Source of the DNA: a virus
DNA: 51,190 nucleotides
Strand: one strand, 5' to 3'
Virus record (IMG/VR): IMGVR_UViG_3300032516_000039
Span: 1 to 51,190 of that record
The position numbers and the translations under genes were made by a program. The notes under the pieces are model-generated. The model worked only from the letters and a program-made list of their open reading frames with translations, made no database searches and was not told the origin of the DNA. Shown piece after piece: positions 3,225 to 18,168 of this stretch; the first letter of the stretch is position 1, and each line of letters begins with the position of its first letter.

Positions 3225-3368
3225 AGCCATATAATATGAGAAAACCAGCCATTGTGAGCGAGCCAAAAAAAGCGAGAAAACCAGAGACGGGGAGCGAGCC
3301 AATAAAAGAGAGAAAACCAATAGATGTGAGCGAGCCATAGGTGCTGAGTAAACCACTAACAATGAGCG
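3225..3368 (+). repeat. Array 1: four 36-bp dual-spacer modules (TIGR-like array)
   Basis: Exactly 144 bp, four modules of 36. Loop-type repeats GAGAAAACCA start at 3238, 3274 and 3310, and GAGTAAACCA at 3346. Edge-type repeats GAGCGAGCCA start at 3256, 3292 and 3328. The array opens with a half edge repeat (AGCCA 3225-3229) and closes with the other half (GAGCG 3364-3368). The eight spacers, all 8 nt and all different, are tataatat, gccattgt, aaaaaagc, gagacggg, ataaaaga, atagatgt, taggtgct and ctaacaat. The last loop repeat carries the A-to-T variant. The array lies between the transglycosylase gene and the ParB-like/Tas-like operon. Confidence 0.85.
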
Positions 3369-3408
3369 TTTTTCAAACTACGGCGAAGTCGTAGAAAAGT
3401 TTCAAAAA
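3369..3408 (+). other. Imperfect hairpin at the end of array 1
   Basis: CTACGGC (3378-3384) pairs with GTCGTAG (3388-3394) around a GAA loop, and outer TTTTTCAAA pairs imperfectly with TTTCAAAAA (3400-3408). It begins directly after the terminal GAGCG of array 1 and ends about 10 nt before the ribosome site of the ParB-like gene. No T-run follows on the + strand, so it is more likely a processing or pausing structure than a strong terminator. Confidence 0.45.
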
Positions 3409-3428
3409 ATAAAACCGAGGTGACCTTG

Positions 3429-4106
3429 ATGGTTACTAAAAAAGTAAAAGCAGTTGAGTTAATATTCGATTGGAATTTATGGCCACGACATGAAGCCGGG
3501 GAATTAGATTCAACGAATATCTCAAAAATGAAACAAGCGATATTGGCAGGAGTAAAACTTCCGCCGGTTATCGTAAATGAAAAAGACAATAGAATTGTGG
3601 ACGGCTTTCACAGAGTGCAAACAGTTCTAAATCTTTACGGAGACGATGCAGAAATTGAAGTAATTTACAAGACTTACAAAAACGATGCTGAAATGTTTAT
3701 CGAATCCGCAAGGATGAATAATCAGCACGGCCTTCCACTTTCCCCACGAGATCGCGCTCATGTAATATTAAAAGCGCGTAGATTTAAAATTCCATTTCCG
3801 GCGATTGCCGAAGCTCTCGGACTTGAAGTTGAAGAGGCAAAGGCTTTTCTTGCTAAAAGGACAGCCAAAAATAGAGACGGCGAAATTGTGACTTTGTCGG
3901 GCGGGGCATTATCTCTCGCGGGAAAAGTATTAACAGCAAAGCAAGAAGAGTACATCAAGAAATGTCCGGGGACAAGCGCACAGCTTTACACGCGGCTTTT
4001 ATTAAACGCGCTCAATGCTGATGCTGTAATTTTCACTGATAAAATTCTTGAAACATTATTGCAGTTAAAAAATAAGATTGAAAAAATACTTGCGGAGGCG
4101 GCATAA
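3429..4106 (+). CDS. ParB/Srx-type N-terminal domain protein with HTH, operon partner of the Tas-like gene
   Basis: Start chosen at ATG 3429, 8 nt after GAGG; a GTG at 3420 would lie inside that site. The 225-residue protein has a ParB N-terminal domain: LPPVIVNEKDNRIVDGFHRVQ at about residues 44-64 holds the conserved vdG-hR signature. A conserved acidic/basic stretch follows (NNQHGLPLSPRDRA, about 98-111), then an HTH-like region (IPFPAIAEALGLEVEEAKAFLA) and a C-terminal helix that could dimerise. ParB domains bind or hydrolyse nucleotides and commonly accompany DNA-binding roles. Its stop overlaps the next ATG by one base, and it lies between arrays 1 and 2, so a job with the arrays is plausible. 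It may also be an independent phage regulator or a defence-related ParB-like protein. Confidence 0.8.
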   Translation: MVTKKVKAVELIFDWNLWPRHEAGELDSTNISKMKQAILAGVKLPPVIVNEKDNRIVDGFHRVQTVLNLYGDDAEIEVIYKTYKNDAEMFIESARMNNQHGLPLSPRDRAHVILKARRFKIPFPAIAEALGLEVEEAKAFLAKRTAKNRDGEIVTLSGGALSLAGKVLTAKQEEYIKKCPGTSAQLYTRLLLNALNADAVIFTDKILETLLQLKNKIEKILAEAA

Positions 4107-4813
4107 TGGAAGATAAAAAAAATCAGTCTCTGCAAATATTAACACGGGCGTATTATGATTATCAGAGAGAGAGAATTTCACTTGATGGACAGATAGGGCG
4201 GCGTAAAGATGGAGAGTTAAAAAAGAACACACCGGACAGAGACGAATCAATGTTGATTTCTCTCATGGAAAGGCGGGCAGTAATTGAAGAAATGGAAAAT
4301 CAGATAGGGAAGGACATTGCAAAGGAAGTTCACTTAACGCCGCTATGGAAGGAATTTCTTGTCAACGTCAAAGGATGCGGCGAAGGAATGGCCGCCGTGA
4401 TAATAACTCAATTTGATATTCATAAATCTTTAACGGTGAGTAATATGTGGAGTTTTGCCGGACTTGCGCCGGGAAAAGATAGACGTGTCAAAGGGCAGAA
4501 ATGCACATACAATCAATTTTTAAAAGCAAAGATGTGCGGGGTACTTGGAAGCGGATTTTTGAAAGCCAATAGTCCTTACAGATCGTTTTATGATGATATG
4601 AAACACCGGCTTGAATCGGCGGACTGGGGAACTTTAAGCAAGAATCCGACAGACAAGAAAAGACCGAAAGCCGGACATCAGCACAAAGCCGCCAACAGGT
4701 ATATGGTCAAGATGTTCATAAAAGATTTATATGTTGCATGGAGGACACTGGAGGGGTTGCCGGTGAGAGAGCCGTATCAGGAGGAGTATCTAAATAAAAA
4801 ACATACGGTATAA
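4106..4813 (+). CDS. Tas-like protein: coiled coil plus Nop/IS110-C-terminal-like domain, no nuclease
   Basis: A 235-residue protein matching the C-terminal half of IS110/IS116 transposases, without their N-terminal DEDD RuvC domain. Residues 1-80 are helical (coiled-coil-like). A helix-hairpin-helix VKGCGEGMAAVII lies at 88-100, SFAGLAPG at 116-123, and a basic C-terminal helix (HKAANRYMVKMFIKDLYVAW, about 193-212) occupies the place of the usual ARKL helix. The catalytic serine segment expected after GLAP is replaced by KGQK, so transposition is unlikely. Nop-domain Tas proteins bind 36-nt dual-spacer guide RNAs and resemble IS110 and box C/D proteins. Array 2 begins 7 bp after this stop. 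With no HNH or RuvC domain it would be a binding-only (TasA-like) form. Alternative: a domesticated transposase fragment. Confidence 0.78.
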   Translation: MEDKKNQSLQILTRAYYDYQRERISLDGQIGRRKDGELKKNTPDRDESMLISLMERRAVIEEMENQIGKDIAKEVHLTPLWKEFLVNVKGCGEGMAAVIITQFDIHKSLTVSNMWSFAGLAPGKDRRVKGQKCTYNQFLKAKMCGVLGSGFLKANSPYRSFYDDMKHRLESADWGTLSKNPTDKKRPKAGHQHKAANRYMVKMFIKDLYVAWRTLEGLPVREPYQEEYLNKKHTV

Positions 4814-4820
4814 TTGAGGT

Positions 4821-5360
4821 TGCCACAGGGAAAGAGAAAACCATTGACGAAGAGCGAGCCATAATCGGTGAGAAAACCATGACCATAGAGCGAGCCATTT
4901 TTTATGAGTAAACCAGCGAATAAGAGCGAGCCACAACATAAGAGAAAACCAGAACCTGTGAGCGAGCCATCTACAACGAGAAAACCAATTGGCGTGAGCG
5001 AGCCAAATAATGCGAGAAAACCAATGAAGCCGAGCGAGCCATTTCACCTGAGAAAACCATGATAAACGAGCGAGCCATCGGGCGGGAGAAAACCAGCAAC
5101 CGTGAGCGAGCCAAAGCGATAGAGAAAACCAGTGTAAAAGAGCGAGCCATCAATAATGAGAAAACCAAAAATTTCGAGCGAGCCAACAAAGTAGAGTAAA
5201 CCAGCGATAATGAGCGAGCCAAAATATGTGAGAAAACCATTAAAGAAGAGCGAGCCACTTAACAAGAGAAAACCAGTCAAGGAGAGCGAGCCAGTTTATG
5301 GGAGTAAACCATGGTGTTGGAGCGAGCCATAACAGAGGAGAAAACCACTTTCAATGAGCG
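4821..5360 (+). repeat. Array 2: fifteen 36-bp dual-spacer modules (TIGR-like array)
   Basis: Exactly 540 bp, 15 modules without a single indel. Loop repeats (GAGAAAACCA, or GAGTAAACCA at 4906, 5194 and 5302) start every 36 bp from 4834 to 5338. Fourteen full GAGCGAGCCA edge repeats lie midway, bounded by half repeats TGCCA (4821-4825) and GAGCG (5356-5360). All 30 spacers are 8 nt and none repeats, from cagggaaa and ttgacgaa at the left to taacagag and ctttcaat at the right. Conserved 10-mers with hypervariable 8-mers fit guide segments and not ordinary tandem duplication. The array follows the Tas-like gene and ends at a terminator, so + strand transcription from the ParB-like/Tas-like operon is likely. 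Confidence 0.9.
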
Positions 5361-5396
5361 AAATATAAAGGGGCAGAAAAGCCTCTTTATATTTTT
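5361..5396 (+). terminator. Rho-independent terminator closing array 2
   Basis: Bases 5361-5374 and 5381-5394 form a 14-bp stem with one G-T wobble and an AGAAAA loop, followed by a short T-rich tail on the + strand. It begins on the base after the terminal GAGCG. The opposite strand has no T-run beyond the stem, so the array is read in the + direction. Confidence 0.8.
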
Positions 5397-5400
5397 ATAC

Positions 5401-5428
5401 TTGACAAATTAAACATTATTATCATAAT
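5401..5428 (+). promoter_or_regulatory. Sigma70-type promoter restarting transcription after array 2
   Basis: TTGACA (5401-5406), 16 nt, then CATAAT (5423-5428), five of six at the -10. It sits between the array terminator and the gene at 5468 and would drive the small genes, the first cytidylyltransferase, array 3 and the sugar cassette. Confidence 0.65.
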
Positions 5429-5467
5429 GTACTGAATGAAAATAAAATAAAATCAAAGGAGAAACAA

Positions 5468-5722
5468 ATGAAAAAAATAATTACGCTTTTAATTTTTCTA
5501 TCGGTTGCTTTTTGTGCGGTTGCTCAGGAGGACGCTCCAGACTGGGTACGCAACATGAGACAAAAAAACAGTCAGACATCATTTATCAATTCAATAAAAA
5601 TTTTGGAAACTGGCAACAAAGGAAAATATGTAATGACCGTGATGTGTATCGGCAATAAAAAATATTTATTCGTGAACGGCAATTCAACAGTCGTAATGCC
5701 GATAGGCGAAGAATGTGAATAG
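5468..5722 (+). CDS. Small exported protein (84 aa) with signal peptide
   Basis: The ATG follows AAAGGAG. The first 20 residues form a typical signal peptide (KKIITLLIFLSVAFCAVA, cut probably before QEDAPDW), leaving a mature protein of about 64 residues with one well-separated cysteine pair (VMCIGN and EECE). No family recognised. It is the first gene behind the promoter at 5401 and sits between arrays 2 and 3. It could be a periplasmic or surface factor, for example one affecting superinfection, but nothing in the sequence proves this. Confidence 0.65.
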   Translation: MKKIITLLIFLSVAFCAVAQEDAPDWVRNMRQKNSQTSFINSIKILETGNKGKYVMTVMCIGNKKYLFVNGNSTVVMPIGEECE

Positions 5723-5939
5723 TCAATTTTGTTTATATTGCCGATTTAGAAGTAATGAAGGATATTGCCATTGTCCGGATGCTAAAATATTATTTCCAAA
5801 ACCGACATCGGACACAGTATCTTTTATTTATAGTTACAATGAGGATGGATGTTTAAAAGTAAGTGATTATTTTGCGTGCATTTATTTTATAACTCATCCG
5901 CGTTATATAGATTATCCGCAAGAGATAGGGCAGGGATAA
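5715..5939 (+). CDS. Small cysteine-rich hypothetical protein (74 aa)
   Basis: A GTG start overlaps the previous gene by 8 bp. The N-terminus carries CLYC and then CHCP, a likely zinc-binding cluster, with a further isolated cysteine in the C-terminal half. The product has no signal peptide or membrane segment. Weak ribosome site; translation may be coupled. Function unknown. Confidence 0.5.
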   Translation: MNSQFCLYCRFRSNEGYCHCPDAKILFPKPTSDTVSFIYSYNEDGCLKVSDYFACIYFITHPRYIDYPQEIGQG

Positions 5940-5944
5940 TATAA

Positions 5945-6706
5945 ATGAAATTTAAGAATTTACTGACAGATAAAAAAATCGCAATCATCCAATGTCGCAT
6001 GGGTAGTAATCGCCTGCCCGGCAAAGTCCTTGCTGATATCGGGGGCAACCTTTCTCTCGATATTCTCATAAGCAGACTTCAAAAATCAAAGCTGATAAAT
6101 AAAATTGTTTTAGCGACTACATTAAATAAAGAAGATGATATTCTTGAATATTTCGCTCAGGCAAAAGGTATATCCATTTATAGAGATAACGCGGATGTAT
6201 TAAAAAAGGTCTGTAATACGGCGGATAGTTCCAAAGCAGACTTGATAATTGACGTAACCGGAGACTGTCCTTTTATTGATCCGGTGGAAATCGACAAGCT
6301 GATTTTAAAATTGTATTTATTTGATTGCGATTACGTCAGCAATATTTTTCCGCGCAACTTGCCGATAGGATTTGACATTCAGGTTTACAAAAAAATTATA
6401 TTAACCCAGATAAATACATTTGTAATTGATAAAGCACATCGCACTCATTCAGGTTGGAATATTTTGAACAAAGCGGAAATGCTGGGATTAAAAATAAAAA
6501 ACAACAAAATAATAAAAAGATTTTATCATCCCGAATGGCGGATTGTACTTGATTACATGGAGGATTTAATCTTGCTCAATAAGATTTACAATCATTTCGG
6601 GCATATAGATTTTTCACAGTGGGACGTAATCCGGCTACTTGAAAAGAATTTAGAGTGGTTGGATATAAATAAAAATTGCAGGCAGAAAAAACCTGAGGAA
6701 ATTTAA
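5945..6706 (+). CDS. SpsF-like cytidylyltransferase (CMP-sugar synthetase family), copy 1
   Basis: A 253-residue nucleotidyltransferase with a Rossmann-like GT-A fold. The N-terminal signature CRMGSNRLPGK (about residues 18-28) is the nucleotide-binding loop of the SpsF/NeuA/KdsB group, and DVTGDCPFIDP (about 99-109) carries the metal-binding aspartates. Relatives activate acidic or amino sugars as CMP-sugars for surface glycans. It resembles the gene at 12095 in length and motifs (both have TGDCP and LDYx(D/E)D), so the phage carries two diverged paralogues. Its stop codon abuts the left half repeat of array 3. Confidence 0.8.
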   Translation: MKFKNLLTDKKIAIIQCRMGSNRLPGKVLADIGGNLSLDILISRLQKSKLINKIVLATTLNKEDDILEYFAQAKGISIYRDNADVLKKVCNTADSSKADLIIDVTGDCPFIDPVEIDKLILKLYLFDCDYVSNIFPRNLPIGFDIQVYKKIILTQINTFVIDKAHRTHSGWNILNKAEMLGLKIKNNKIIKRFYHPEWRIVLDYMEDLILLNKIYNHFGHIDFSQWDVIRLLEKNLEWLDINKNCRQKKPEEI

Positions 6707-6708
6707 TT

Positions 6709-6816
6709 TGCCATATCTGTAGAGAAAACCAAGATAATAGAGCGAGCCAACAACCGGGAGTAAACCAATAACAATGAGCGAGCCAAAAGGCAAGAGAAAA
6801 CCAGTGGAATTGAGCG
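6709..6816 (+). repeat. Array 3: three 36-bp dual-spacer modules (TIGR-like array)
   Basis: Exactly 108 bp, three modules. Loop repeats start at 6722 (GAGAAAACCA), 6758 (GAGTAAACCA) and 6794; full edge repeats at 6740 and 6776; half edge repeats TGCCA at 6709-6713 and GAGCG at 6812-6816. Spacers: tatctgta, agataata, acaaccgg, ataacaat, aaaggcaa and gtggaatt. No spacer equals one in the other arrays, though ataacaat and array 1 ctaacaat differ only at the first base. It sits between two sugar genes with no terminator after it, so it is probably transcribed within the sugar operon. Confidence 0.85.
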
Positions 6817-6857
6817 TATTTTAAAAATTATTAAAAAATTAAACAGTGGGTATAAAT

Positions 6858-7805
6858 ATGTACAATGTTTTGATTGTCGGAGCTGGCAGTGTCGGAACTT
6901 CCAAGCCGGATAAGTACGATTCACCGCTGACAGAAAATATCCTTACACACGCGCACGCGGTTTATAATAATGACGATTTAAAACTCATCGGGGTTGTCGA
7001 TAAGGATTTAAAGAAAGCAAAAAAAGCCGGTGACAAATGGAGTTGTAATTATTACGGAAATATAAACGAGTGTAAAGATAAGATTGATATCGTAGTTTGT
7101 GCGGTCAACACCGAATATCATAAAGAGGTGATGAAGCAGATTATACAAATTGATCCGCGTATTGTAATTGCTGAAAAGCCATTGACGAATAGTTATAAAG
7201 ATTGTCAATACATAATTGATTTATACGCTGGAAACGGAATCCCGATTGCAGTAAATTTTCCGCGCCGGTATATCCCGGAGATTCAAAACTTAATGATATC
7301 TTTACGCAAAAGAAAAATACAGAATATAAATGTCCAGTATGTCAGAGGCTTCCAGCGGGACGCCTGCCATGCGATAGATTTACTCAATCAATTTCTCGGT
7401 GAATATAAAGACGGATGGATTTTAAATGTTGAAGAGATACTTGATAATCCAGATGACGCGACTTTGACAGCACATTTAATTTATGACAAATGTGATAACG
7501 TAATAATTCAGGGATGTAACGGAAAGCATTATTCGGTATTCGATATTAAGATCATGGTTGATAACGGGCTGATTGAAATAAAATCACATAGTAGCGTAGT
7601 TTATTTTTACGGGTTAAAGGCGACAGAGTATGGAAATTTCAAATCGCTTGATTATGGATTTGACGGATTTTACACAAGCATGAATAAGCATTTAATTTAT
7701 CTTTACAAAAATGTCGTCAATCATTTAAAGCATAAAGAAAAATTGATATGCACTGGCGCGGACGCGTTGAAGGTGCAGAAAATTTATAAGGAGATCGGAT
7801 TATGA
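6858..7805 (+). CDS. Gfo/Idh/MocA-family sugar oxidoreductase
   Basis: A 315-residue NAD(P)-dependent enzyme. The Rossmann motif GAGSVG is at about residues 7-12, and the family signature AEKPLTNS lies near residue 100 (EKP is the cofactor/substrate-binding motif). Length is typical (300-370). Such enzymes oxidise or reduce nucleotide sugars or inositols; with the adjacent DegT gene (4-bp overlap), a keto-sugar for transamination is a reasonable product. Start set at ATG 6858, which begins directly with the Rossmann strand; a GTG at 6846 adds four residues. It follows array 3 by about 40 bp. Confidence 0.82.
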   Translation: MYNVLIVGAGSVGTSKPDKYDSPLTENILTHAHAVYNNDDLKLIGVVDKDLKKAKKAGDKWSCNYYGNINECKDKIDIVVCAVNTEYHKEVMKQIIQIDPRIVIAEKPLTNSYKDCQYIIDLYAGNGIPIAVNFPRRYIPEIQNLMISLRKRKIQNINVQYVRGFQRDACHAIDLLNQFLGEYKDGWILNVEEILDNPDDATLTAHLIYDKCDNVIIQGCNGKHYSVFDIKIMVDNGLIEIKSHSSVVYFYGLKATEYGNFKSLDYGFDGFYTSMNKHLIYLYKNVVNHLKHKEKLICTGADALKVQKIYKEIGL

Positions 7806-9157
7806 AACTCGCCATAAATGGAGGCCCAAAAATCCGCACAAAGCTATTTAATCCGCAACCTTCCATCGGAGTTGAAGAGATCGCGGCGGTTACGAAGTTT
7901 ATAACTCAGGACGATGTTTTACTTTCGGGGTTTCGCGGGAATAATACGGATGCCTTCTGGGGCGGGCCACAGGTCAGAAAGTTTGAAGCTGACCTCGGAA
8001 AATATCTTGGTTGCAGTCAGGTGCTTGCTGTCAATTCTTGTACGTCCGCGCTTCATATTGCTTGTGGGGCAATCGGTTTAAAGCCTGGAGATCAGGTAAT
8101 AGTTACGCCGTGGAGTATGAGCTGTTCGGCAACCGCGCCGATGGTGTACGGTGCAATCCCAGTATTTGCAGACATTGAAAAAGATTTTTTCTGCCTTGAT
8201 CCTGAAAGCGTAGAATCTAAAATCACAGACCGGACAAAGGCGATAATCGTAGTTGATTTATTTGGATTGCCTTACGATGTCGAGCGGATAAATGCGATTG
8301 CAGAAAAGCATAATCTTTATGTAATAGAGGACGCGGCGCAGGCTCTGGGATCGGAATACAACGGCAAGAAGTCAGGAACGCTCGGGCATATCGGATGTTT
8401 TTCTTTTACGCAGGGGAAGCATCTAACTTGTGGAGAGGGCGGGGCGATAGTGACAGCGGATAAAGATTTATATTTAAAGTGCGCCGCGTTACGGAATCAT
8501 ATCGAGGCGGTTACAAACGGGATGACCGATAAACAACTTGTAAATTATTACGGTGTATCAATGGCTGGATACAATATGAGAATGACGGAATTAAACGCGG
8601 TGATAATGCAGGAGCAGTTGAAAAAACTTGATGGCTATGTTAAAGATAGAATTACAAATGCTGAATTTCTTTATAAAGGCATTTGTGAAATACCATTCAT
8701 AAAATCCGCATTCGAAATAACACCGCCATTTCCGGAAGGAGATAAATGTCGGACTGAATGGATTGGATTCGACAATTATCCTCATTCATTCTATTGTCAG
8801 GCTTTTCATTATGATAATAATTTATCTGATGGGATACACCGGAATAAATTTATCGAAGCTGTCAAGGCGGAACTGGTCGGGGATAGACAGCGGATTGACA
8901 GAGGCGTTCCGATATCAACCGGTTACATAACACCGCTTTATAAGTTTCCGGTATTCCAATATAATCTGCATTGGACACTTCAACAGCACAAGACGGATTA
9001 TAGAGACGTATTTTTGCCGGTTGCCGAAGAGTTACACAATAACGAATTATTTATCAGCCTTTATCATGGGCTTGATTTAGACCTTGACGATTTAATGGAT
9101 ATTGTAAACGCATTTAAAAAAGTTGCTGATAATATGGATGAATTGAGAACAAAATAA
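7802..9157 (+). CDS. DegT/DnrJ/EryC1 (ArnB-type) sugar aminotransferase
   Basis: A 451-residue PLP enzyme. NSCTSALH (about 78-85) binds the phosphate, EDAAQALG (about 176-183) contacts the pyridine ring, and Lys206 in SFTQGKHLTCGEGG is the Schiff-base lysine. These enzymes transfer an amino group from glutamate to a keto-sugar nucleotide. The gene overlaps the oxidoreductase by 4 bp, giving an oxidise-then-aminate pair as in bacterial amino-sugar and nonulosonate pathways. It is somewhat longer than usual (370-400), with extra sequence in the C-terminal third. All key residues are present. Confidence 0.88.
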   Translation: MKLAINGGPKIRTKLFNPQPSIGVEEIAAVTKFITQDDVLLSGFRGNNTDAFWGGPQVRKFEADLGKYLGCSQVLAVNSCTSALHIACGAIGLKPGDQVIVTPWSMSCSATAPMVYGAIPVFADIEKDFFCLDPESVESKITDRTKAIIVVDLFGLPYDVERINAIAEKHNLYVIEDAAQALGSEYNGKKSGTLGHIGCFSFTQGKHLTCGEGGAIVTADKDLYLKCAALRNHIEAVTNGMTDKQLVNYYGVSMAGYNMRMTELNAVIMQEQLKKLDGYVKDRITNAEFLYKGICEIPFIKSAFEITPPFPEGDKCRTEWIGFDNYPHSFYCQAFHYDNNLSDGIHRNKFIEAVKAELVGDRQRIDRGVPISTGYITPLYKFPVFQYNLHWTLQQHKTDYRDVFLPVAEELHNNELFISLYHGLDLDLDDLMDIVNAFKKVADNMDELRTK

Positions 9158-9181
9158 AATAAAAATAAAAGGAGATAGTAT

Positions 9182-9655
9182 ATGTTTAAAAGATTTAAAA
9201 GAGTAATAAAATCATGGTGCGGGATAGCTCTTGATAATTTGGAAGAGCCGATATCAACAATGGAAGCAATCATTGAAGAATCGAAAGGGGCTATTTACAA
9301 GCTGTATGTAAGTCTTGAACAGGTCAAGGAATCAATTTTAAAACTGGATAAAGTAAAATCAGATACTATATCGCCTGAAATGTTGGCAAAGGAAAAAGAA
9401 AACCTTAAAAAGTATGAAGAGAAATTAACAAAAGATATTTCTAAGTATAAAACAAAAATATTAGAATATAGCCGTAAATTGGAATACATGAAAGCCAAGA
9501 ATGAAGCCCTTTCCGCTATACTTAAAATTAAAGAGAATATATCAAATGTAAACTCGTCAAATGCGATATCTACATGGAACAGGATGGAAAAGAAAATATC
9601 GAATAAAGAAATAAAAATAAAAGCCTATGAAGACATGGACGATTTTGAAGTTTAA
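9182..9655 (+). CDS. PspA/IM30-like coiled-coil protein
   Basis: A 157-residue protein resembling the N-terminal two thirds of phage-shock protein A: MFKRFKRVIKSW as membrane-touching amphipathic helix, DNLEEPISTMEAIIEES (about 19-35) like the LDxxEDPxKM region, then a long lysine/glutamate coiled coil (about 60-115). PspA proteins protect membranes under stress and form ESCRT-III-like polymers. A phage copy could guard the host membrane during infection or act as decoy. Shorter than PspA (about 220). Strong ribosome site GGAG at -8. The next gene begins inside its 3' end. Confidence 0.65.
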   Translation: MFKRFKRVIKSWCGIALDNLEEPISTMEAIIEESKGAIYKLYVSLEQVKESILKLDKVKSDTISPEMLAKEKENLKKYEEKLTKDISKYKTKILEYSRKLEYMKAKNEALSAILKIKENISNVNSSNAISTWNRMEKKISNKEIKIKAYEDMDDFEV

Positions 9656-10226
9656 AGTTAGATATGTATTATTGTCGTTTATATTTCTGTATGGATGTGT
9701 CAACGGCAAAGGATGTAATGAAAACTATATTGAAGATTTGCCTGAAGTTTATTTCGATGCTTATACTTTTATAATAAATGGCGAATCTATAAACAAAGAA
9801 AGTAATTATTACAATATCCCATATTCAACAAAATGTCCTTGCGATATAAACGATAATAATACAACGTCTAATCTCAAAATTATAAATAAAAATAATGGAG
9901 AGAAAATAGAGGATTTAAAAGTTACTCAAGACGGAGTGAAAACAAAAATAGGTTTAATATTTAGAGTTGTAAGTAGCGATAGTACGGCATATAGTACAAA
10001 GCTAAAGATAGTATATTACGAATATGATATTACTGAAAAAGAAAATGACATGAGTTATATTATAATACTTTTATGGTTAGCTGGCGTAATGATTATGATA
10101 CTTATTGCTGCGTTATATGTAATAGACGCAGGTCTAAAATATAGAGACAGGAAAGAAAGAGAAAAAATCAATGATGTAACAAAAAGAAATATAGTAGAAT
10201 TTATAATTAAATCTGAAAAATATTGA
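9627..10226 (+). CDS. Lipoprotein-like single-pass membrane protein (199 aa)
   Basis: The N-terminus has a hydrophobic stretch ending FLYGC (lipobox-like, Cys about residue 24), a central extracytoplasmic part of about 115 residues with CPC and CNE cysteines, and a C-terminal transmembrane helix (IIILLWLAGVMIMILIAALYV, split here at about 145-165) followed by a basic cytoplasmic tail. It overlaps the PspA-like gene by 29 bp and may form a membrane pair with it. No family recognised. Very AT-rich. Confidence 0.6.
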   Translation: MKTWTILKFKVRYVLLSFIFLYGCVNGKGCNENYIEDLPEVYFDAYTFIINGESINKESNYYNIPYSTKCPCDINDNNTTSNLKIINKNNGEKIEDLKVTQDGVKTKIGLIFRVVSSDSTAYSTKLKIVYYEYDITEKENDMSYIIILLWLAGVMIMILIAALYVIDAGLKYRDRKEREKINDVTKRNIVEFIIKSEKY

Positions 10227-10227
10227 T

Positions 10228-10401
10228 ATGAATATGCTTGTATATATTATTTTTATACCTATTCTGTTATATACTTTTTATGTTATATACGAAGACATTA
10301 TGAAGGATAAAAAAATTATGATAGCAAAAAATTACAAGATTGATAAAATAAGACATGAAAGAGATATAATAAATATGGTAATGAAGTCAGATGAATTTTA
10401 G
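10228..10401 (+). CDS. Small membrane protein (57 aa)
   Basis: An ATG two bases after the previous stop begins with one transmembrane helix (LVYIIFIPILLYTFYVIY) followed by a charged tail rich in Lys, Asp and Glu. No strong ribosome site, so coupling to the gene upstream is likely. Its N-in/C-out arrangement is unknown. It could be a partner of the lipoprotein-like gene. Confidence 0.5.
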   Translation: MNMLVYIIFIPILLYTFYVIYEDIMKDKKIMIAKNYKIDKIRHERDIINMVMKSDEF

Positions 10402-10412
10402 GAATAATTAAG

Positions 10413-10979
10413 ATGAATAAAAAAAACACAGTAACACTTATCCCGATGTTTTACCACGAGATTTATTTAAAGTTAATTTCAAACTGGCGGAATATGCCGG
10501 AAGTGAAAAAGACTTTAAGATCGTACCTTGACACGAATCAAGACAATCAAAAAGATTTTGTCGACAGGATAAGAAAATCCAATGATATGTATTATTACAT
10601 AATGCAATCAGAGACTAACGATTCGAGTTACACCGATAAAGAATACAACACCGATCCACGTAAATATATAAATACGCTTGTTGGATATTGTGGACTGGAT
10701 AAAATACATCAGGCAAACAGGACGGCGGAAATAAGTCTTTTAATCGCGCCTCAATTTCAAAGGGCTGGTCACGGACTGAGCGCGGTAAAATTATTGTTAT
10801 TAAAAGCGTTCGATGAAGTGAATTTGAATTTGATATTTGCAGAGACTTACTTCGGCAAGGAGTTCTGGATTAAGTGCGGATTTAAACAGGACGGCATAAT
10901 GAGAGATCGGAAATATTATGCAGACAAGTATCATAATTCTTATATGCTAAGCATAACAAGACAGGAGTTTTACAAATGA
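10413..10979 (+). CDS. GNAT-family N-acetyltransferase 1
   Basis: A 188-residue GNAT enzyme of the RimJ/RimL type. LIAPQFQRAGHGLSAVKLLL (about 109-128) carries the acetyl-CoA loop (Q/R-x-x-G-x-G/A), and GFKQDG near residue 157 is the usual C-terminal strand. In this cassette it probably acetylates the amino group made by the DegT enzyme, as LegH/PseH-type enzymes do, but protein acetylation cannot be excluded. It overlaps the NeuB-like gene by 4 bp. Confidence 0.78.
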   Translation: MNKKNTVTLIPMFYHEIYLKLISNWRNMPEVKKTLRSYLDTNQDNQKDFVDRIRKSNDMYYYIMQSETNDSSYTDKEYNTDPRKYINTLVGYCGLDKIHQANRTAEISLLIAPQFQRAGHGLSAVKLLLLKAFDEVNLNLIFAETYFGKEFWIKCGFKQDGIMRDRKYYADKYHNSYMLSITRQEFYK

Positions 10980-11614
10980 ATAATATTTTTATTTTAGATT
11001 TTGGTAGTGGAAATACTTGTAAAAATAATTATGTTACAATTCAGCGGATGATAGACGAGATTGCGGATATAGATTATGATAGAAAGTTTATAATTAAATA
11101 TCAGCTTTTTGAAAAGGCTGGAAATAACATACCTCTTTTTCTAAGCTGTTTTAATAAGGCTTATGAATATGCTGAAAAACTCGGATATCAGACTACAGCG
11201 AGCGTTTTTGATATTAACAGTTTGAACTTTTTAATGAATTTCGACGTGCCATTTATAAAAATAGCTAACCGTCCAGAATTATATCATCTTATCGGAGAAG
11301 TACCTCGGAAAATACCAGTATTGACAAGTGTCAAAGATCAATGGTATAATCCGATAGATGTGCAATTTTCAAATACTTTGGCCTGCGTTTCAAATTATCC
11401 GGCGAAGATAGAATATTACGAAAAGAATTTCTCAGTCAATATTTTAAAAGCCGGAATCAGCGATCATACGGAGGGCTGGGATCTGTTTGAAAAGTATCTG
11501 CCACGGATTTATGAATGTCATTTTTGCTTAGAACATGATAACAATAATCCAGACGCGGGGCCATTTGCGAGAACGCCTGAGATGTTAAAAAAAATACTCG
11601 GAGTTATGAAATGA
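10976..11614 (+). CDS. NeuB-like (nonulosonic acid synthase) TIM-barrel domain, no SAF domain
   Basis: A 212-residue protein resembling the barrel of sialic/legionaminic acid synthases: the second strand region KYQLFEKAG, a FIKIANRPEL strand and turn, SDHTEGWDLF (like the gYSDHTxG motif) and YECHFCLEHDN (like the metal-binding xEkHfxLd). Full NeuB proteins have about 340 residues with a C-terminal antifreeze-like SAF domain; here the gene stops after the barrel, and the N-terminal strand is short. It may be a specialised or partly degenerate synthase. The gene between GNAT and cytidylyltransferase genes supports a nonulosonate-like route. Confidence 0.68.
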   Translation: MNNIFILDFGSGNTCKNNYVTIQRMIDEIADIDYDRKFIIKYQLFEKAGNNIPLFLSCFNKAYEYAEKLGYQTTASVFDINSLNFLMNFDVPFIKIANRPELYHLIGEVPRKIPVLTSVKDQWYNPIDVQFSNTLACVSNYPAKIEYYEKNFSVNILKAGISDHTEGWDLFEKYLPRIYECHFCLEHDNNNPDAGPFARTPEMLKKILGVMK

Positions 11615-11796
11615 AAATAGAATTAGATGAAAAATGTGTATTTACATATTCCAAAGAAGATTTGAGTATTCATATTCATAGACATACAGAAAAAAGATAT
11701 TCTGGTAAAGTAGAATATGAAGGCAGTTTACGATTTTTCGATAAAGCACAAATGTCACAATTTTTAGAAATGATGGAATTATGTTTAAATAAATAA
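11611..11796 (+). CDS. Small hypothetical protein (61 aa)
   Basis: Starts in a 4-bp ATGA overlap with the NeuB-like gene. Predicted beta-rich with His-containing strand (LSIHIHRHTEKRYSGK) and a C-terminal helix (QMSQFLEMMELCL). No known domain. Confidence 0.55.
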   Translation: MKIELDEKCVFTYSKEDLSIHIHRHTEKRYSGKVEYEGSLRFFDKAQMSQFLEMMELCLNK

Positions 11797-11876
11797 AGTG
11801 AACAATTGCATATAACATATGAGTTATAAAATGAAAAAAATTCAGTCGTGTTTAAAACAATGTAAGGAGAATATTC

Positions 11877-12080
11877 ATGTTTAGAACATGGTGGATAATA
11901 ATATCGGGTGTGGTAGTATTAGCGTCGGGCGTATATCTTGTTATTAAAAACGAATATCATGTTATCATTATTATATTATGGATATTTTGGTATATAGATA
12001 GAATGATGGAAGATTTAGAAAAAGAAGGCCGGAAACTGCAAAAGAAATATGATGATTTTAGAAAACGCCATGGAATATAA
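11877..12080 (+). CDS. Small two-helix membrane protein (67 aa)
   Basis: AAGGAG precedes the ATG. Two hydrophobic segments (about residues 4-23 and 27-42) are followed by a charged amphipathic tail (DRMMEDLEKEGRKLQKKYDDF). It may be a small accessory membrane protein of the glycan cassette. No family recognised. The 80-bp gap before it holds only a 17-codon frame. Confidence 0.6.
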   Translation: MFRTWWIIISGVVVLASGVYLVIKNEYHVIIIILWIFWYIDRMMEDLEKEGRKLQKKYDDFRKRHGI

Positions 12081-12094
12081 ATAGGAGATATTAA

Positions 12095-12862
12095 ATGAAA
12101 AAGATTGCAGTAATACCCATCAGAGACGATTCGACCAGACTGGAAAGGAAGGCCACCGGATTTAAACTTTACAAGAATTTTACGCCGATTGAATGTATTA
12201 TGAAACGGCTCGAATTAAGCAAAAGGCTTGATGATATTATCTTCATATCACCGGCCACGGCGATAAATAAAAGTATAGAAAAGATATGTAAGAAAAACGG
12301 GTATAAATACTATGCAGGGTCAACGAACGACATATCAAGACGCGCTCTCGAAGCGGTTGAATACTCAGATTGCTGTATGGTTGACATTACGGGCGATTGT
12401 CCGCTTGTCGATCCGCTTCAGGTAGACCGGCTTTTATTCGAGTATGAACGGAATAAGAAAAGTTGGCCAGATATTGAATATCTTTATATTACGAACATCT
12501 TGACAAGATCGTATCCGGACGGATTTGACATTCAGGTATTCGATTCAAAGCTCTTGGAATTGGCGCGTAACATATCAATTGATAAAAAAGAAATTACAAA
12601 TTACGGCTGGGATATAATGCACTATTCAGGATATATCAATGCTGATTTTCGGATATTGAATTTCCCGGCAAGTGAGGAGTATTGGTTTCCGAGGTGGGGA
12701 TTGACTCTTGATTATCAAGACGATGTTTTTCTATTACAAAAAGTATATCAGCATTTTGATAATTTCAAGTTCACCTGCGAGGATGTAATAGAGTTCATCA
12801 AAAAGAATGAAAATATATTAAAAATAAACGAAGAATGTGAAAGGAAAATATCGGGGGAATAA
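12095..12862 (+). CDS. SpsF-like cytidylyltransferase, copy 2
   Basis: A 255-residue protein of the same family as the gene at 5945. The nucleotide-binding loop is altered: IPIRDDSTRLERKATGF (about 7-23) in place of RMGSxRLPGK, keeping the Arg and Lys but losing LPGK, while VDITGDCPLVDP (about 106-117) keeps the metal aspartates. Altered loop plus intact metal site suggests another nucleotide or sugar, or reduced activity. Ribosome site AGGAG. Copies 1 and 2 could activate two different sugars. Confidence 0.75.
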   Translation: MKKIAVIPIRDDSTRLERKATGFKLYKNFTPIECIMKRLELSKRLDDIIFISPATAINKSIEKICKKNGYKYYAGSTNDISRRALEAVEYSDCCMVDITGDCPLVDPLQVDRLLFEYERNKKSWPDIEYLYITNILTRSYPDGFDIQVFDSKLLELARNISIDKKEITNYGWDIMHYSGYINADFRILNFPASEEYWFPRWGLTLDYQDDVFLLQKVYQHFDNFKFTCEDVIEFIKKNENILKINEECERKISGE

Positions 12863-12865
12863 ATT

Positions 12866-13084
12866 ATGAATACAGCATCTTTCAAATTATCGAAATTGGA
12901 TTTATTTGAATTGATAGGAATGCCTTTTCTTCTGGCTGATATACAAAAAATAGAAGTATACCACGATCATTTGAAAATATTTATTGCAGGAATAGACAGC
13001 AGGATTCCAGAAGGTGAAAATTTTGAAGAGAGTTATGTAATCCATAAAAAGACCGAAGCGTATTTTAAAAAGATTGAGGTATAA
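12866..13084 (+). CDS. Small hypothetical protein (72 aa)
   Basis: ATG three bases after the preceding stop, with GGGGGA as ribosome site inside that gene. The N-terminus is helical and hydrophobic (LSKLDLFELIGMPFLL), the remainder mixed with charged residues. No domain recognised. Confidence 0.5.
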   Translation: MNTASFKLSKLDLFELIGMPFLLADIQKIEVYHDHLKIFIAGIDSRIPEGENFEESYVIHKKTEAYFKKIEV

Positions 13085-13086
13085 TA

Positions 13087-13257
13087 ATGCAGATTGGTGA
13101 AACACGGCACGCGGAAGTAATGTATTATGAACATAATACAGAATGTGATATGTGTGATAAAAAATCATCTTGCATTATTATAAAAACGCTCGGAACTGAT
13201 TGTTTATGTATCTGTATAGATTGTCTTGAAAATATAGTAAAGGAAAGTGGATTATAA
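13087..13257 (+). CDS. Small cysteine-rich protein (56 aa), probable zinc ribbon
   Basis: A 56-codon frame between two genes with a 1-bp overlap to the next. Cysteines are arranged as CDMC, a single C, then CLCIC and C, seven in all, typical of a small metal-binding domain. Comparable pattern to HNH or treble-clef scaffolds, but no catalytic motif. Function unknown. Confidence 0.55.
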   Translation: MQIGETRHAEVMYYEHNTECDMCDKKSSCIIIKTLGTDCLCICIDCLENIVKESGL

Positions 13258-13928
13258 TGTTAGGTATATCAATAGGCTCTGTTCACAAGATAGTCGGAGA
13301 CGATAAAGACCGCAACGAATATATAAAGTATATCAGAGATTGCGGATTAAAATTCGAGGCGATTGAATTGAACGCGCTTTGTAGTGACTTCAGATTGACC
13401 AATGATAACAGGACTTATTTAGATACGATGAAGCACGTATCAATTCACTTGCCGGTTGTGGATTATGATTTCTGGAAAGTATTACAGCAATATGATTTTA
13501 AATACTGGGTGGGACATTCCGATGTAAATTATAACGATGAAGATTTAATTGAAATTGAAGACGACGATATTATGCTAATTGAAAATCTGGATGCAGAAAC
13601 ATTATTAAAAATACCGGAAAATTATTTTAATGAACTCATAGAGAATTTTGATATCTGCTTCGACATATCCCACGAATTAAGCAAAGGACTTGACCTCTGC
13701 AAGTTTAACCTTGCTATGTATAAAGACAAAATAAAAGAGATACACATATCCGGATATAACAAAAAATGTCACGTACCTTTTTATTATGGGACACTACTTG
13801 AAATAGCAGAGTCATTAAAAAGGAATAATCTTTTAGAACTTCCGATAATCATGGAATATAATTTCGATAATCTTGAAGAAATGGAACATGAATATAATTT
13901 ATTAAAGGAAACATTATGTATAAAATAG
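13257..13928 (+). CDS. TIM-barrel protein of the sugar isomerase/AP-endonuclease-2 type
   Basis: A 223-residue protein with alternating strands: MLGISIGSVHK start, FEAIELNAL, VSIHLPV, FDICFDISHE (metal-type D-x-H), IKEIHISGYN and LPIIMEYNF (Glu at a metal-ligand position). That order fits xylose isomerase-like barrels, which epimerise or isomerise sugars using divalent metal. In this cassette an epimerase/isomerase step is plausible. Short for the family (250-300). Overlaps the downstream GNAT gene by 13 bp. Confidence 0.6.
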   Translation: MLGISIGSVHKIVGDDKDRNEYIKYIRDCGLKFEAIELNALCSDFRLTNDNRTYLDTMKHVSIHLPVVDYDFWKVLQQYDFKYWVGHSDVNYNDEDLIEIEDDDIMLIENLDAETLLKIPENYFNELIENFDICFDISHELSKGLDLCKFNLAMYKDKIKEIHISGYNKKCHVPFYYGTLLEIAESLKRNNLLELPIIMEYNFDNLEEMEHEYNLLKETLCIK

Positions 13929-14449
13929 AACCGTTGACTAAAGAACACAATTATAAAAAAATTGCTGGATGGTTTAATGATCCGATATTAAATAAATATA
14001 CAAGCCATAGAACGAAAAATATGTCTGATGAAGATGTGCAATATTATATTTATACTCTTGAAATTGTAGAAAATAAAAAAGCGTGGGCTATTTATGAAAT
14101 ATTTACTTTTTGCGGAACATCTGAATATAAGCATTACGGAAATATAAGTTTGCAAAATATCAATAATATAAATCGTTCGGCGGAAATAGCCTGGATGATA
14201 TCAGAGCAAGGGAAAGGGGCAGGGACGGAAGCCGGAAAGCAGGTGCTTGATTATGCTTTTAATATTCTCAATTTAAATCGTGTCTGGTGCGGGTGTGTTA
14301 AAGAAAATATTGGCATGGTAAAACTTGCTGGAAAGCTGGGTATGAAACAGGAAGGGATATCCCGCGAGGCTTTTTTCCTTGATGGTCGATATACAGATAT
14401 AATACAATTTGGAATTTTGAAAGGGGAATGGAATGAACATAAATCTTGA
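13916..14449 (+). CDS. GNAT-family N-acetyltransferase 2 (RimJ/RimL-like)
   Basis: A 177-residue GNAT enzyme: GNISLQNINNINRSAEIAWMI strand region, the acetyl-CoA loop GKGAGTEAGKQVLDYAF (about 98-114), LNRVWCGCVKEN, then LGMKQEGISREAFF. This matches PseH/LegH-like and RimJ-like enzymes that acetylate amino sugars or protein N-termini. Close to the MAF gene (17-bp overlap), an amino-sugar substrate is the natural guess. Distinct from GNAT 1, so two acetylation steps or substrates are possible. Confidence 0.8.
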   Translation: MYKIEPLTKEHNYKKIAGWFNDPILNKYTSHRTKNMSDEDVQYYIYTLEIVENKKAWAIYEIFTFCGTSEYKHYGNISLQNINNINRSAEIAWMISEQGKGAGTEAGKQVLDYAFNILNLNRVWCGCVKENIGMVKLAGKLGMKQEGISREAFFLDGRYTDIIQFGILKGEWNEHKS

Positions 14450-17099
14450 AAATAATCTCAAAGTAATAAGAAAGGTAAGCAAGAATCTTGCCGATGATAT
14501 TAAGAAATCATCTTGTACATGGGCGGAAATAATAAAGTCGAAGAACGGCAAGAACAATCTATACATAAATAAAAACAACCGTCCGGCGTATGCTTACAAT
14601 CCTGAAAATCCGATGAAGTCCGCAAAGATGATCGGCAAGCAGAAAGTATTTTATAAAGACACGGCCACGATGATTATCGGTATGGGTCTGGGACATACGG
14701 CATACGAAATTTTAAAACATAAAGAGAAAGGCCACAGGGTTTTTATAATCGAGCCTACTTTATGGATGATGAAAATGGCGTTCTCTGAATATGATTTCTC
14801 GAAATACATAACTGACGGAAGTCTTGTAATAGCAACCTCGAAAAATGATGTTGTCTATCTGTCAAACGTACTTGATACGCTCTATGTTATTCAGGATTGG
14901 ATGACAATCACGGAGCAGTATATTTTAACCTGCGAAGAATATAAAGAGATCGGCCAGTTTGCGCTTGAAATTATAAATCAGTTGCGGTGCAATACGGGAA
15001 CGGTGATGGGCGCGGGCCACATTATCGCAGAAAACGATATCAAGAATCTGCCGTATGTTATCAGGCATAGAGGGGTTATCGATTTAAAAGACCTGTTCAA
15101 GGGCAAGCCTGCAATATCCGTAAACACCGGCCCGTCATTGGCAAAGAATATCCATCTGCTTAAAGATGTCGCTGACAAGGTCGTTATTATTGCCGTAGCG
15201 CAAGCATTAAGAATATTACTTGCTTATGGTATCAAGCCAGATTTTATCTGCACGGTGGATTATGGTAAGGTTAACAAGGAACATTTTAACGGATTATTTG
15301 ATGAAAAGGATGTAAATCTCGTTTGTCTCAATCGGACATACGCGCCGATTATAAAGCAATGGCAAGGAACAAAGTTTATCGCCGGCACGCCGTGTCCAGG
15401 GTTTGAAGATTTTACAAAGGTATTACAGAGCAAGGGATTTTTAGAGCAGGGCGGAAGCGTGTCTCATATGAATCTGGGGCTGGCTTTACATCTTGGATGT
15501 GATCCGATTCTGGTCATAGGTCAGGACTTCGCGTATAGTCCGGATTTTCTTTCACACATTGAACAAGTGGACGCGGGCGGTCAGGTCAAGATTGATAACG
15601 GTATGTTGAAGTGGAAAATTAAAGATCCCAGGTCGAGTATAAAGACCGGAACTCATCCGATGGGCGGGGTTGTAATGGTTGACGGGTTACTCGGTGAATC
15701 AGTACCCACGAATATCGGACTTGCTTCGTTTATTTTATCATTTGAACGGATAATCGAAGGCAAGGGAAACAGGGTTATCGATTGCACTGAAGGCGGGGCA
15801 AAGAAGAAAGGCTCAATCCCGATGACACTGGAAAAGGCAATATCGGAATACTTAAAAAAGCCGATTGATAAATCAGTCATAGAACCGTTTAAGACAATCG
15901 ATCCGAACGCTGAAAAGTTGGTTGATGAAAGTCTTGAAGTATTGGTCAAAGACATTGAAAACCTTAAAAATATAATCGAACATTCGGCCGCGGGGCTGGC
16001 GACTTGTGAGGATATAAAGACAGCCATTAAAAAGCGTAAACGCAGTAAAAATAAAGATATTTATACAAAGAAAATTGACAAACTGCTGGAAGTGAATTTA
16101 AAACAAAGTCAGGACGCGCACGAATGCACGCTTAAAAATAACCTCATGGGAGTATCGATATTCCATGCCAGCCGAAGGATTAACGCACGGGATCTGGCTG
16201 TTTCCGGAAAGAATACCTACAAACAGAATAAAGAGGATTTACTCAATATACGGATCAAGCGGAACGAGACTATTTTGACAGCGGTGAAGGATTCTGCCGA
16301 AAAGCTATTGCCGATTTACAAAAAAACATATACTATATTAAAGAAGTACAAAGACACTGGAGATTTGAGCTTATTGGAAACGCCTATAGAAGAGACGATA
16401 AACTTGAAAGACGCCGATAAATATTTCAAGGTTGGCAACTGGGCTCATCCACTGGTTGATGCTGAAAAGGTTCTGAAAAAGCATAGCGATCTTGAAGCGC
16501 ACGAAATAATGAAAAAAGCGTGGGAGATGAGAGGATACGCCATTAACAAGGCGAAGGAATTATACAAGACCGAAAAGAGACAGGACCTCATAGACTACAA
16601 TGAATGGTGTGAACAATCTTACAAGCTCGGAAGGGCTGGAGACTTTAAAAAAGCCCTTGACTTTTTGATAAAGGCATATAAACTCAATCCAGACAAAGAG
16701 CGGGCGCGATGGGGGCTATCTAATACGTATTTCAGGCTCGGAAACATAGACAAGTGCATTGAATATTTCGAAGGGCTGGTCAAGGATTTTCCGGACGTAC
16801 TTCAATATCAATTTGAACTTGGTATTGTGACATTTGAAAAGGACTTGAACAAAGGAATTGAACTCATCACGGCCTTAATGGCCAAGACTGAATTATACGA
16901 TTATTTCTTTAAGGATTTGGGTCAGTTATTTATGGAATCCGGACAAACTGAAAAGGCGGTAGTTGCTTATGAGAATTACATTTCGAAGTATCCCGCTAAT
17001 TATGAAATATATAAAACTCTTGCGACACTTTATAAAAAACTGGGAGATATTAAGCAATCAGATAAAATGGATAAAATCTATAAGGAAATGACAGCTTAA
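14433..17099 (+). CDS. MAF/DUF115 (MptE-like) glycosylation protein with C-terminal TPR domain
   Basis: An 888-residue protein. The N-terminal part has a Rossmann-like segment (GMGLGHTAYEIL, then VFIIEPT), followed by the DUF115/MptE-like core with ISVNTGPSLAKN, FICTVDYGK and PILVIGQDFAYS (about residues 220-360). This is the fold of Maf proteins, which move nonulosonic acids onto flagellin or other proteins. Residues about 725-888 form TPRs (LGRAGDFKKALDFLIKAY; LGNIDKCIEYF; SGQTEKAVVAYENYI) suited to binding an acceptor protein. It ends the sugar cassette, so transfer of the phage-made sugar is its likely role. Acceptor unknown: virion, flagellin or host surface protein. Confidence 0.82.
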   Translation: MNINLENNLKVIRKVSKNLADDIKKSSCTWAEIIKSKNGKNNLYINKNNRPAYAYNPENPMKSAKMIGKQKVFYKDTATMIIGMGLGHTAYEILKHKEKGHRVFIIEPTLWMMKMAFSEYDFSKYITDGSLVIATSKNDVVYLSNVLDTLYVIQDWMTITEQYILTCEEYKEIGQFALEIINQLRCNTGTVMGAGHIIAENDIKNLPYVIRHRGVIDLKDLFKGKPAISVNTGPSLAKNIHLLKDVADKVVIIAVAQALRILLAYGIKPDFICTVDYGKVNKEHFNGLFDEKDVNLVCLNRTYAPIIKQWQGTKFIAGTPCPGFEDFTKVLQSKGFLEQGGSVSHMNLGLALHLGCDPILVIGQDFAYSPDFLSHIEQVDAGGQVKIDNGMLKWKIKDPRSSIKTGTHPMGGVVMVDGLLGESVPTNIGLASFILSFERIIEGKGNRVIDCTEGGAKKKGSIPMTLEKAISEYLKKPIDKSVIEPFKTIDPNAEKLVDESLEVLVKDIENLKNIIEHSAAGLATCEDIKTAIKKRKRSKNKDIYTKKIDKLLEVNLKQSQDAHECTLKNNLMGVSIFHASRRINARDLAVSGKNTYKQNKEDLLNIRIKRNETILTAVKDSAEKLLPIYKKTYTILKKYKDTGDLSLLETPIEETINLKDADKYFKVGNWAHPLVDAEKVLKKHSDLEAHEIMKKAWEMRGYAINKAKELYKTEKRQDLIDYNEWCEQSYKLGRAGDFKKALDFLIKAYKLNPDKERARWGLSNTYFRLGNIDKCIEYFEGLVKDFPDVLQYQFELGIVTFEKDLNKGIELITALMAKTELYDYFFKDLGQLFMESGQTEKAVVAYENYISKYPANYEIYKTLATLYKKLGDIKQSDKMDKIYKEMTA

Positions 17100-17415: not shown

Positions 17416-17787
17416 TTGCCGATCAAAAAAGAAAATCTAAAACTCTATCCCGAGAATTGGAAAGAACTATCAGCCAGGCTAATTCAGGCCGCCGGAAACA
17501 AATGCCAGAAGTGCAAAGCTAAGAATAAAGAGCTTCATCCGCTCAGAGGTAAAGTCGTACACCTGGCAGTCGCCCACCTTGACCACGATCCGACAAACTG
17601 CAAGAAAAGCAATCTTAAAGTCTTTTGCCAGTGGTGTCACCTTGAATACGACAGACGGCATCATTCCATAAATGCGAATATGACTAAAATAAATAAAAAT
17701 AGTCCTGTACAAGTAAATGATTTTGATTCGTTTATAAAAACATTGCAGGAGAATTTTAATAAAGCGGTTAAACTGACGGAAAACTGA
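17416..17787 (+). CDS. HNH endonuclease next to the terminase genes
   Basis: TTG start after GAAGGT. 123 residues with CQKC, then VAHLDHDPTNCKKSNLKVFC and CHLEYDR, i.e. an HNH nuclease with two zinc CxxC-type pairs and catalytic His in HLDHD. HNH proteins encoded beside terminases in HK97-like phages (gp74 type) assist DNA packaging by cleaving at the genome end. Position directly before TerS-like and TerL supports that role; a homing endonuclease is the alternative. Confidence 0.8.
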   Translation: MPIKKENLKLYPENWKELSARLIQAAGNKCQKCKAKNKELHPLRGKVVHLAVAHLDHDPTNCKKSNLKVFCQWCHLEYDRRHHSINANMTKINKNSPVQVNDFDSFIKTLQENFNKAVKLTEN

Positions 17788-17793
17788 CAAGAA

Positions 17794-18168
17794 ATGGCAA
17801 ATTTAGAGAATCTTAAAAACGGCAAGAAATTCAAGAAAGGGCATCCTCCGATGGGAGGTAGGCCGAAGAACGTATTTACTCAGTACGCCGATAAATTCCA
17901 ATTAAGCAAAACAGACGTAAAGAACGTAATAAACCTTGTTCTCTCCAAAAATACCACAGAACTTGAAAAGATGATGAAGGACAAAGAGACCTCTGCGCTT
18001 CTGCTCGCCTTTATTTCAGCGTCAATCACAGCGATTAAGAAAGGCGATACAAGGTCTATTGAGTATATGCTTGACCGGTCTATTGGAAAGGTTGCGGATA
18101 AGCTGGATTTAAGCGCGGATGCTAAAGTCAGGATTGAAATCAGCAAAGAACTACTGCCGAAGAAATGA
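17794..18168 (+). CDS. Probable terminase small subunit-like protein
   Basis: 124 residues: a basic N-terminal tail (LKNGKKFKKGHPPMGGRPKN, like DUF5681 DNA-binding segments) and a helical middle and C-terminus. It overlaps the TerL gene by 4 bp, the normal position of TerS, whose oligomers recognise the packaging site. No direct motif proves TerS; the call rests on position, size and the basic DNA-binding-like N-terminus. Confidence 0.6.
   Translation: MANLENLKNGKKFKKGHPPMGGRPKNVFTQYADKFQLSKTDVKNVINLVLSKNTTELEKMMKDKETSALLLAFISASITAIKKGDTRSIEYMLDRSIGKVADKLDLSADAKVRIEISKELLPKK

Follow-up and report, generated by a model that had tools for sequence, protein, structure and literature searches.

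In the TIGR-Tas systems described by Faure et al. (2025; PMC12045711), arrays consist of alternating edge and loop repeats of 8–12 nucleotides (nt) and of spacers that are mostly 9 nt long (16 nt in all in SpTIGR); the edges are truncated at the 5′ and 3′ ends, a terminator is present and, in the systems studied, the arrays are processed to 36-nt RNAs. In one group, tasParB genes share an operon with tasA, and arrays with 10-nt repeats lie upstream of, downstream of or between the genes (PMC12045711); TasParB is named in no other paper of the literature that we searched. Here we describe a locus in the window, that is, the whole 51,190-base virus record IMGVR_UViG_3300032516_000039, that is a further member of this already described tasParB-tasA group: it has the same operon, dual-repeat arrays upstream and downstream, and 10-nt edge and loop repeats, and it differs from the published members in coming from an uncultured contractile-tailed phage and in having three arrays, one of them inside a run of sugar-biosynthesis genes. 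A preliminary description of this DNA had proposed a TIGR-Tas system, and every defining feature that can be tested on the sequence is found (a Nop-type Tas protein, dual-repeat arrays beside its gene, truncated edges and a terminator after array 2); it had overlooked the ParB-family gene upstream in the same operon, the strong terminator that closes array 2 and the tasParB-tasA subtype. We consider it highly probable that the locus is an RNA-guided, non-cutting TasA system of this subtype, carried by a phage; such a system would allow its phage to mark selected DNA. Our analysis adds the partner TasParB, the assignment to a subtype, the co-occurrence of TasParB with TasA throughout the clade without ParA, the agreement of box D between repeats and a set of negative target results.

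The experimentally studied system SpTIGR-TasH of Salicola phage CGphi29 (HQ634153) has nearly the same repeats (edge AAGCGAGCCA and loop AAGACAACCA, compared with GAGCGAGCCA and GAGAAAACCA in the window), 36-bp units, 8-nt spacers and a protein homologous to the window TasA in the Nop region; this phage, the source of SpTasH, served as our positive control and was recovered by homology. However, its protein has an HNH nuclease, whereas the window TasA has none, and no gene annotated as ParB lies within 2.5 kb of its locus. TaTIGR-TasR (PDB 9mty) likewise has the same array plan and a similar Nop fold (template modeling score, TM, 0.73); it differs in the RuvC nuclease of TasR, its 9-nt spacers and its box D, which is UG.

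The pattern WGCCA-N8-GAGWAAACCA-N8-GAGCG occurs 22 times in the window, each time over 36 bp and with no mismatch, and not once in 100 dinucleotide shuffles; the opposite strand has no match, and allowing up to three mismatches revealed no further unit in the window. Each unit is laid out as 10+8+10+8 bp, that is, two alternating repeats and two spacers, in the order edge remnant, spacer A (8 nt), loop repeat, spacer B (8 nt), edge remnant; GAG...CCA (boxes D and C) is present in both the edge and the loop repeat, and the edge repeats are truncated at both ends of all three arrays. The preliminary description had placed three arrays of four, fifteen and three exact modules with 44 different spacers; its coordinates are right to the base, and all 44 spacers are indeed distinct. 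Spacers A and B within a unit are unrelated, and the spacer 8-mers are neither enriched nor depleted in the phage's own genome (1.10, compared with 1.06 in other genomes). Rfam and tRNA scans returned nothing.

The 235-residue open reading frame that had been seen to end just ahead of array 2 is present as described (Table 1), and the two comparisons proposed for its product, with Tas profiles and with known structures, both place it among Tas proteins. The protein scores 141.4 bits against NCBIfam NF052498 (TIGR-Tas; cut-off 100), a family titled 'TIGR-Tas system RNA-guided endonuclease', yet it has no HNH or RuvC domain, and Pfam detects no nuclease domain in it. By sequence its nearest PDB entries are TasH (1e-13) and TasR (5e-11). 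The AlphaFold 2 model (predicted local distance difference test, pLDDT, 91.2) consists of a Nop part only; with this model, Foldseek ranks TasH bound to its guide RNA (tigRNA) best (TM 0.71–0.81), followed by TasR and then by IS110-family recombinases, and the top 11 matches are all TasH or TasR. PADLOC gave no match for this protein or for TasParB. Because its sequence and fold matches are Tas-like and it comprises the Nop part without a nuclease, we assign it to TasA as Faure et al. (2025) use the name, that is, to the nuclease-less TIGR-Tas subtype.

The gene ahead of tasA, tasParB, best starts at the ATG at 3429, behind GAGGTGA, with an in-frame GTG at 3420 as an alternative; its stop overlaps the start of tasA (TAATG). 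Its product matches PHROG 1033 ParB (E=1e-13), and the best Foldseek matches of its AlphaFold 2 model (mean pLDDT 93.7) are ParB, Noc and KorB. TasParB thus has the fold of these CTPase clamps and differs from them in lacking a ParA (the ParA ATPase, PF13614, is absent from the window), in lacking a known parS and in its divergent nucleotide-binding boxes; across 24 relatives the GxHR box is invariant and Box III is divergent. Because the stop and start codons overlap and a hairpin with a U run follows array 2, we read tasParB, tasA and array 2 as one transcript, and they look like one transcription unit on the + strand; none of 200 shuffles was as stable as this hairpin. Array 1 lies upstream of the operon, and the arrays flank tasParB on both sides. 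Array 3 is located 1.9 kb from tasA, and the fold test found no terminator behind it.

Table 1. Features of the tasParB-tasA locus (positions in the window).
Feature	Position	Strand	Evidence and remarks
TIGR array 1, four 36-bp units	3225..3368	+	Pattern search; truncated edge AGCCA at start, GAGCG at end
Hairpin after array 1, 7 pairs	3378..3394	+	Weak; z -0.56, no better than shuffles
tasParB, ParB-family protein, 225 aa	3429..4106	+	PHROG, AlphaFold 2, Foldseek, conserved box
tasA, nuclease-less TIGR-associated protein with a Nop domain, 235 aa	4106..4813	+	Profile, PDB and AlphaFold 2/Foldseek matches
TIGR array 2, fifteen 36-bp units	4821..5360	+	7 bp past tasA stop
Hairpin after array 2, 15 pairs then U run	5360..5395	+	Intrinsic terminator by fold; -18.3 kcal/mol, z -5.9
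TIGR array 3, three 36-bp units	6709..6816	+	2 bp past stop of cytidylyltransferase-like gene, in sugar-biosynthesis gene run

After de-duplication, scans of viral and genome collections yielded 83 distinct loci with TasA or TasParB; the sampling was seeded by the window protein, so the counts describe its neighborhood and not all TIGR systems. An array signal is present in 70 of the 83 loci, with all clear cases at a 36-bp period; the flanks examined of the other 13 have no signal with a detector that is blind to stem-loop arrays. In 29 of the 83 loci TasParB is encoded near tasA, without exception on the same strand. In a tree built from 39 TasA proteins the presence of TasParB requires 4 changes, compared with 12.2 in shuffles; every one of the 14 members of the window's group (support 82/99) has TasParB, as have 9 of 10 members of a second group. 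A ParA (PF13614) is found in a single one of 35 related records; its ATPase gene lies at G009:C1:39038-39544, and the tasA locus of that record (L029) is without TasParB. The genome records with loci include Thermoplasmatota, Spirochaetota, Chloroflexota and others; all are metagenome bins, in which viral contigs may be present.

Of the 35 loci in which both repeats have a consensus at the first base of box D, 34 carry an identical base there in edge and loop (G/G in 20, A/A in 12, T/T in 2; the exception is T/A), as expected if a symmetric dimer reads both. In loci with TasParB this first base is fixed and equal in 24 of 25 (16 G/G, 8 A/A), so that the spacers are 8 nt long; many loci that lack TasParB have a variable base here, so that their spacers are 9 nt long.

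Several relatives show further variation. Two marine phages (L071, 7547–8450, IMGVR 3300020340_000001; L072, 7547–8650, 3300030106_001089) have flanks that are 94–96% identical, and of their approximately 20 TIGR units few are exactly common (the first unit and a late one); one middle unit differs in the loop repeat alone, and the remaining units have half-spacers in common or drifted spacers. The arrays appear to change far more quickly than the DNA around them. One locus (L042) has two TasA genes (6594–7607 and 8366–9259) with several arrays between and around them. Among cultured phages, Microcystis phage Mvi-JY20 has a 36-bp dual-repeat array (ATGCGAGCC / ACGAAACCC; L192, 3686–4020) directly behind a Tas-like gene annotated as hypothetical and just ahead of the terminase gene. 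Rhodococcus phage Peregrin, whose host is also known, has three 53-bp units with CCA motifs beside gene 187 (L194, 3245–3404); their arms are complementary within a unit and covary between units, and this looks like a TIGR array of the stem-loop type. Mycobacterium phage Rich gp50 (L193, 2285–3268) and Gordonia phage Morrissey gp42 (L195, 2294–3124), both from cultured actinobacteriophages, are Tas-like proteins with no dual-repeat array within 2.5 kb.

By analogy with TasR and TasH, the arrays would be transcribed and the transcripts, with TasA attached, cleaved to yield 22 guide RNAs, each 36 nt long. One guide would be held by a dimer of TasA through box C (CCA) and box D (GAG), which the edge and the loop repeats both contain. 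Spacers A and B would pair with opposite strands of an adjacent 16-bp DNA target, which would be opened and bent without being cut. TasA might then recruit or load TasParB at the target, the least certain step, and the ParB clamp would spread, silencing transcription or replication there. This loading step, with silencing of the target, is the mechanism that we favor, but in this exact form we put it forward only tentatively; much safer is the broader claim of a non-cutting RNA-guided DNA binder that has a ParB partner. KorB has been described as a clamp that slides on DNA and exerts silencing at a distance (PMC11790492); possibly, although we would not call it probable, TasA with its tigRNA on a 16-bp site could serve as an RNA-chosen parS, from which the clamp would slide and silence neighboring DNA of a rival element or of the host. 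Other mobile elements or genes of the host are more likely targets than is the phage itself.

To search for targets, we modeled them as adjacent halves, first spacer B and then spacer A in reverse complement, an order that we infer from the reported 8-nt 3′ overhangs; wrongly paired spacers or the chance expectation were the controls. The 22 guides of the window have no target with one mismatch or fewer in their own genome. When 290 guides of virus records were each compared with their own genome, there were no exact matches and one with one mismatch, compared with 3 for wrongly paired spacers in three rounds. Matches were at chance level in a pooled 1.4 Mb of TIGR viruses with gaps of -3 to 12 bp, in 0.14 Mb of capsid relatives of the window phage, and for 95 guides from a group of marine TIGR phages in 1.16 Mb, mostly of polymerase relatives; 12 guides of a metagenome-assembled genome (MAG) from Dehalococcoidia had no target in 0.27 Mb of that MAG. 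For a conserved marine guide, one 18-nt target has a single match in the whole viral collection, which is approximately the chance expectation. One match in the parallel order (A.B), with one mismatch, in the 1.16-Mb set was dropped: the same 120-nt sequence is present in three contigs, so that it is a single event, little above the chance level for the orders tried. The searches rule out that near-perfect targets are frequent in the virus itself or in the sampled relatives; their scope is those DNAs and not host DNA or mismatched targets.

Several points count against a guided, ParB-loading system. No target was found in any of six DNA tests, so that the argument for guided binding is purely one of homology; the published support for contact between TasA and TasParB is an AlphaFold3 model only; and Box II of TasParB is GxHR instead of GERR, with Box III divergent, so that its use of CTP is only putative (the nucleotide specificity of ParB-type CTPases is not predictable from sequence; PMC12704722). 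In addition, in one 35-kb virus (L108, 1551–2560; L109, 6932–7940) TasParB is followed directly by a TIGR array, and a full-sensitivity profile recognizes no TasA; this is either a natural TasA-less variant or a deletion.

Other functions can be proposed for the same parts. Guided TasA may regulate host genes or assist integration rather than act as a weapon against other elements, with TasParB as a transcription regulator; we hold this possible but short of probable. The nearest relative (G001) has a tyrosine integrase, TasR bends its target DNA by approximately 180 degrees (PMC12045711), and the ParB fold includes transcription regulators; however, the window record has no integrase (PF00589), and host-type targets were searched only in the 0.27 Mb of one unrelated MAG. 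Given that ParB proteins bind repeated DNA sites and that arrays flank tasParB, the arrays might instead be DNA sites (iterons) for TasParB and not the source of guide RNAs, but we judge this improbable: arrays of the same plan accompany many tasA loci that lack TasParB, processing to 36-nt RNAs occurs in the systems studied (PMC12045711), all spacers differ while repeats and lengths are constant, and array 2 shares the operon's coding strand and is closed by a terminator-like hairpin. The ParB-family partner in the operon could also suggest partition of the phage's own genome, with guided TasA sites as a programmable parS for TasParB, a possibility that we rate as slighter still; the 290 guides had no exact match in their own genomes, the one-mismatch rate was not above that of wrongly paired spacers, gapped matches were at chance, and the one related record with ParA lacks TasParB. 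The absence of ParA together with the absence of own-genome targets argues against plasmid-style partition. Finally, an IS110 transposase remnant with a bridge RNA is so improbable that we set it aside: the likeness to IS110 noted in the preliminary description stands in that IS110-family recombinases are among the lower fold matches (IS621, TM 0.61), but the Pfam likeness is weak (Transposase_20, sub-threshold, E=0.17), the N-terminal RuvC/DEDD domain that marks IS110 proteins is absent from the 235-residue TasA by Pfam and in its model, Tas structures match better by several orders of magnitude, and the gene is conserved in dozens of viruses with arrays.

The virus that carries the locus is a contractile-tailed phage, with a large terminase gene (Terminase_3, 18165–19361), a portal, an HK97-type capsid, a tail sheath, a tape measure and a Mu-gp48-like protein. 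Where the large terminase gene could be located in the related records, it is in most of them downstream of the tas locus on the same strand, the usual phage order, from which we draw no conclusion. The region 5945–17099, in which array 3 is located, contains genes like those for pseudaminic or legionaminic acid synthesis (PseC-, PseH-, PseI- and cytidylyltransferase-like) and also encodes a PseD/Maf-type glycosyltransferase with tetratricopeptide repeats. Genes resembling HNH/NUMOD4 homing endonucleases are found at 825–2221, 17416–17787 and 19675–20175, one of them directly behind the large terminase gene.

TIGR-Tas systems are programmable, independent of a protospacer-adjacent motif and small, and TasA is their commonest form, without a known function or natural target. 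The locus in the window is compact and complete (operon, terminator and three arrays), and Mvi-JY20, a cultured phage with a known host, is useful for target finding. The conservation of TasParB throughout the clade without ParA points to a non-cutting effector rather than to partition and makes the question testable; if programmable ParB loading is true, a 36-nt RNA would direct gene silencing at a distance.

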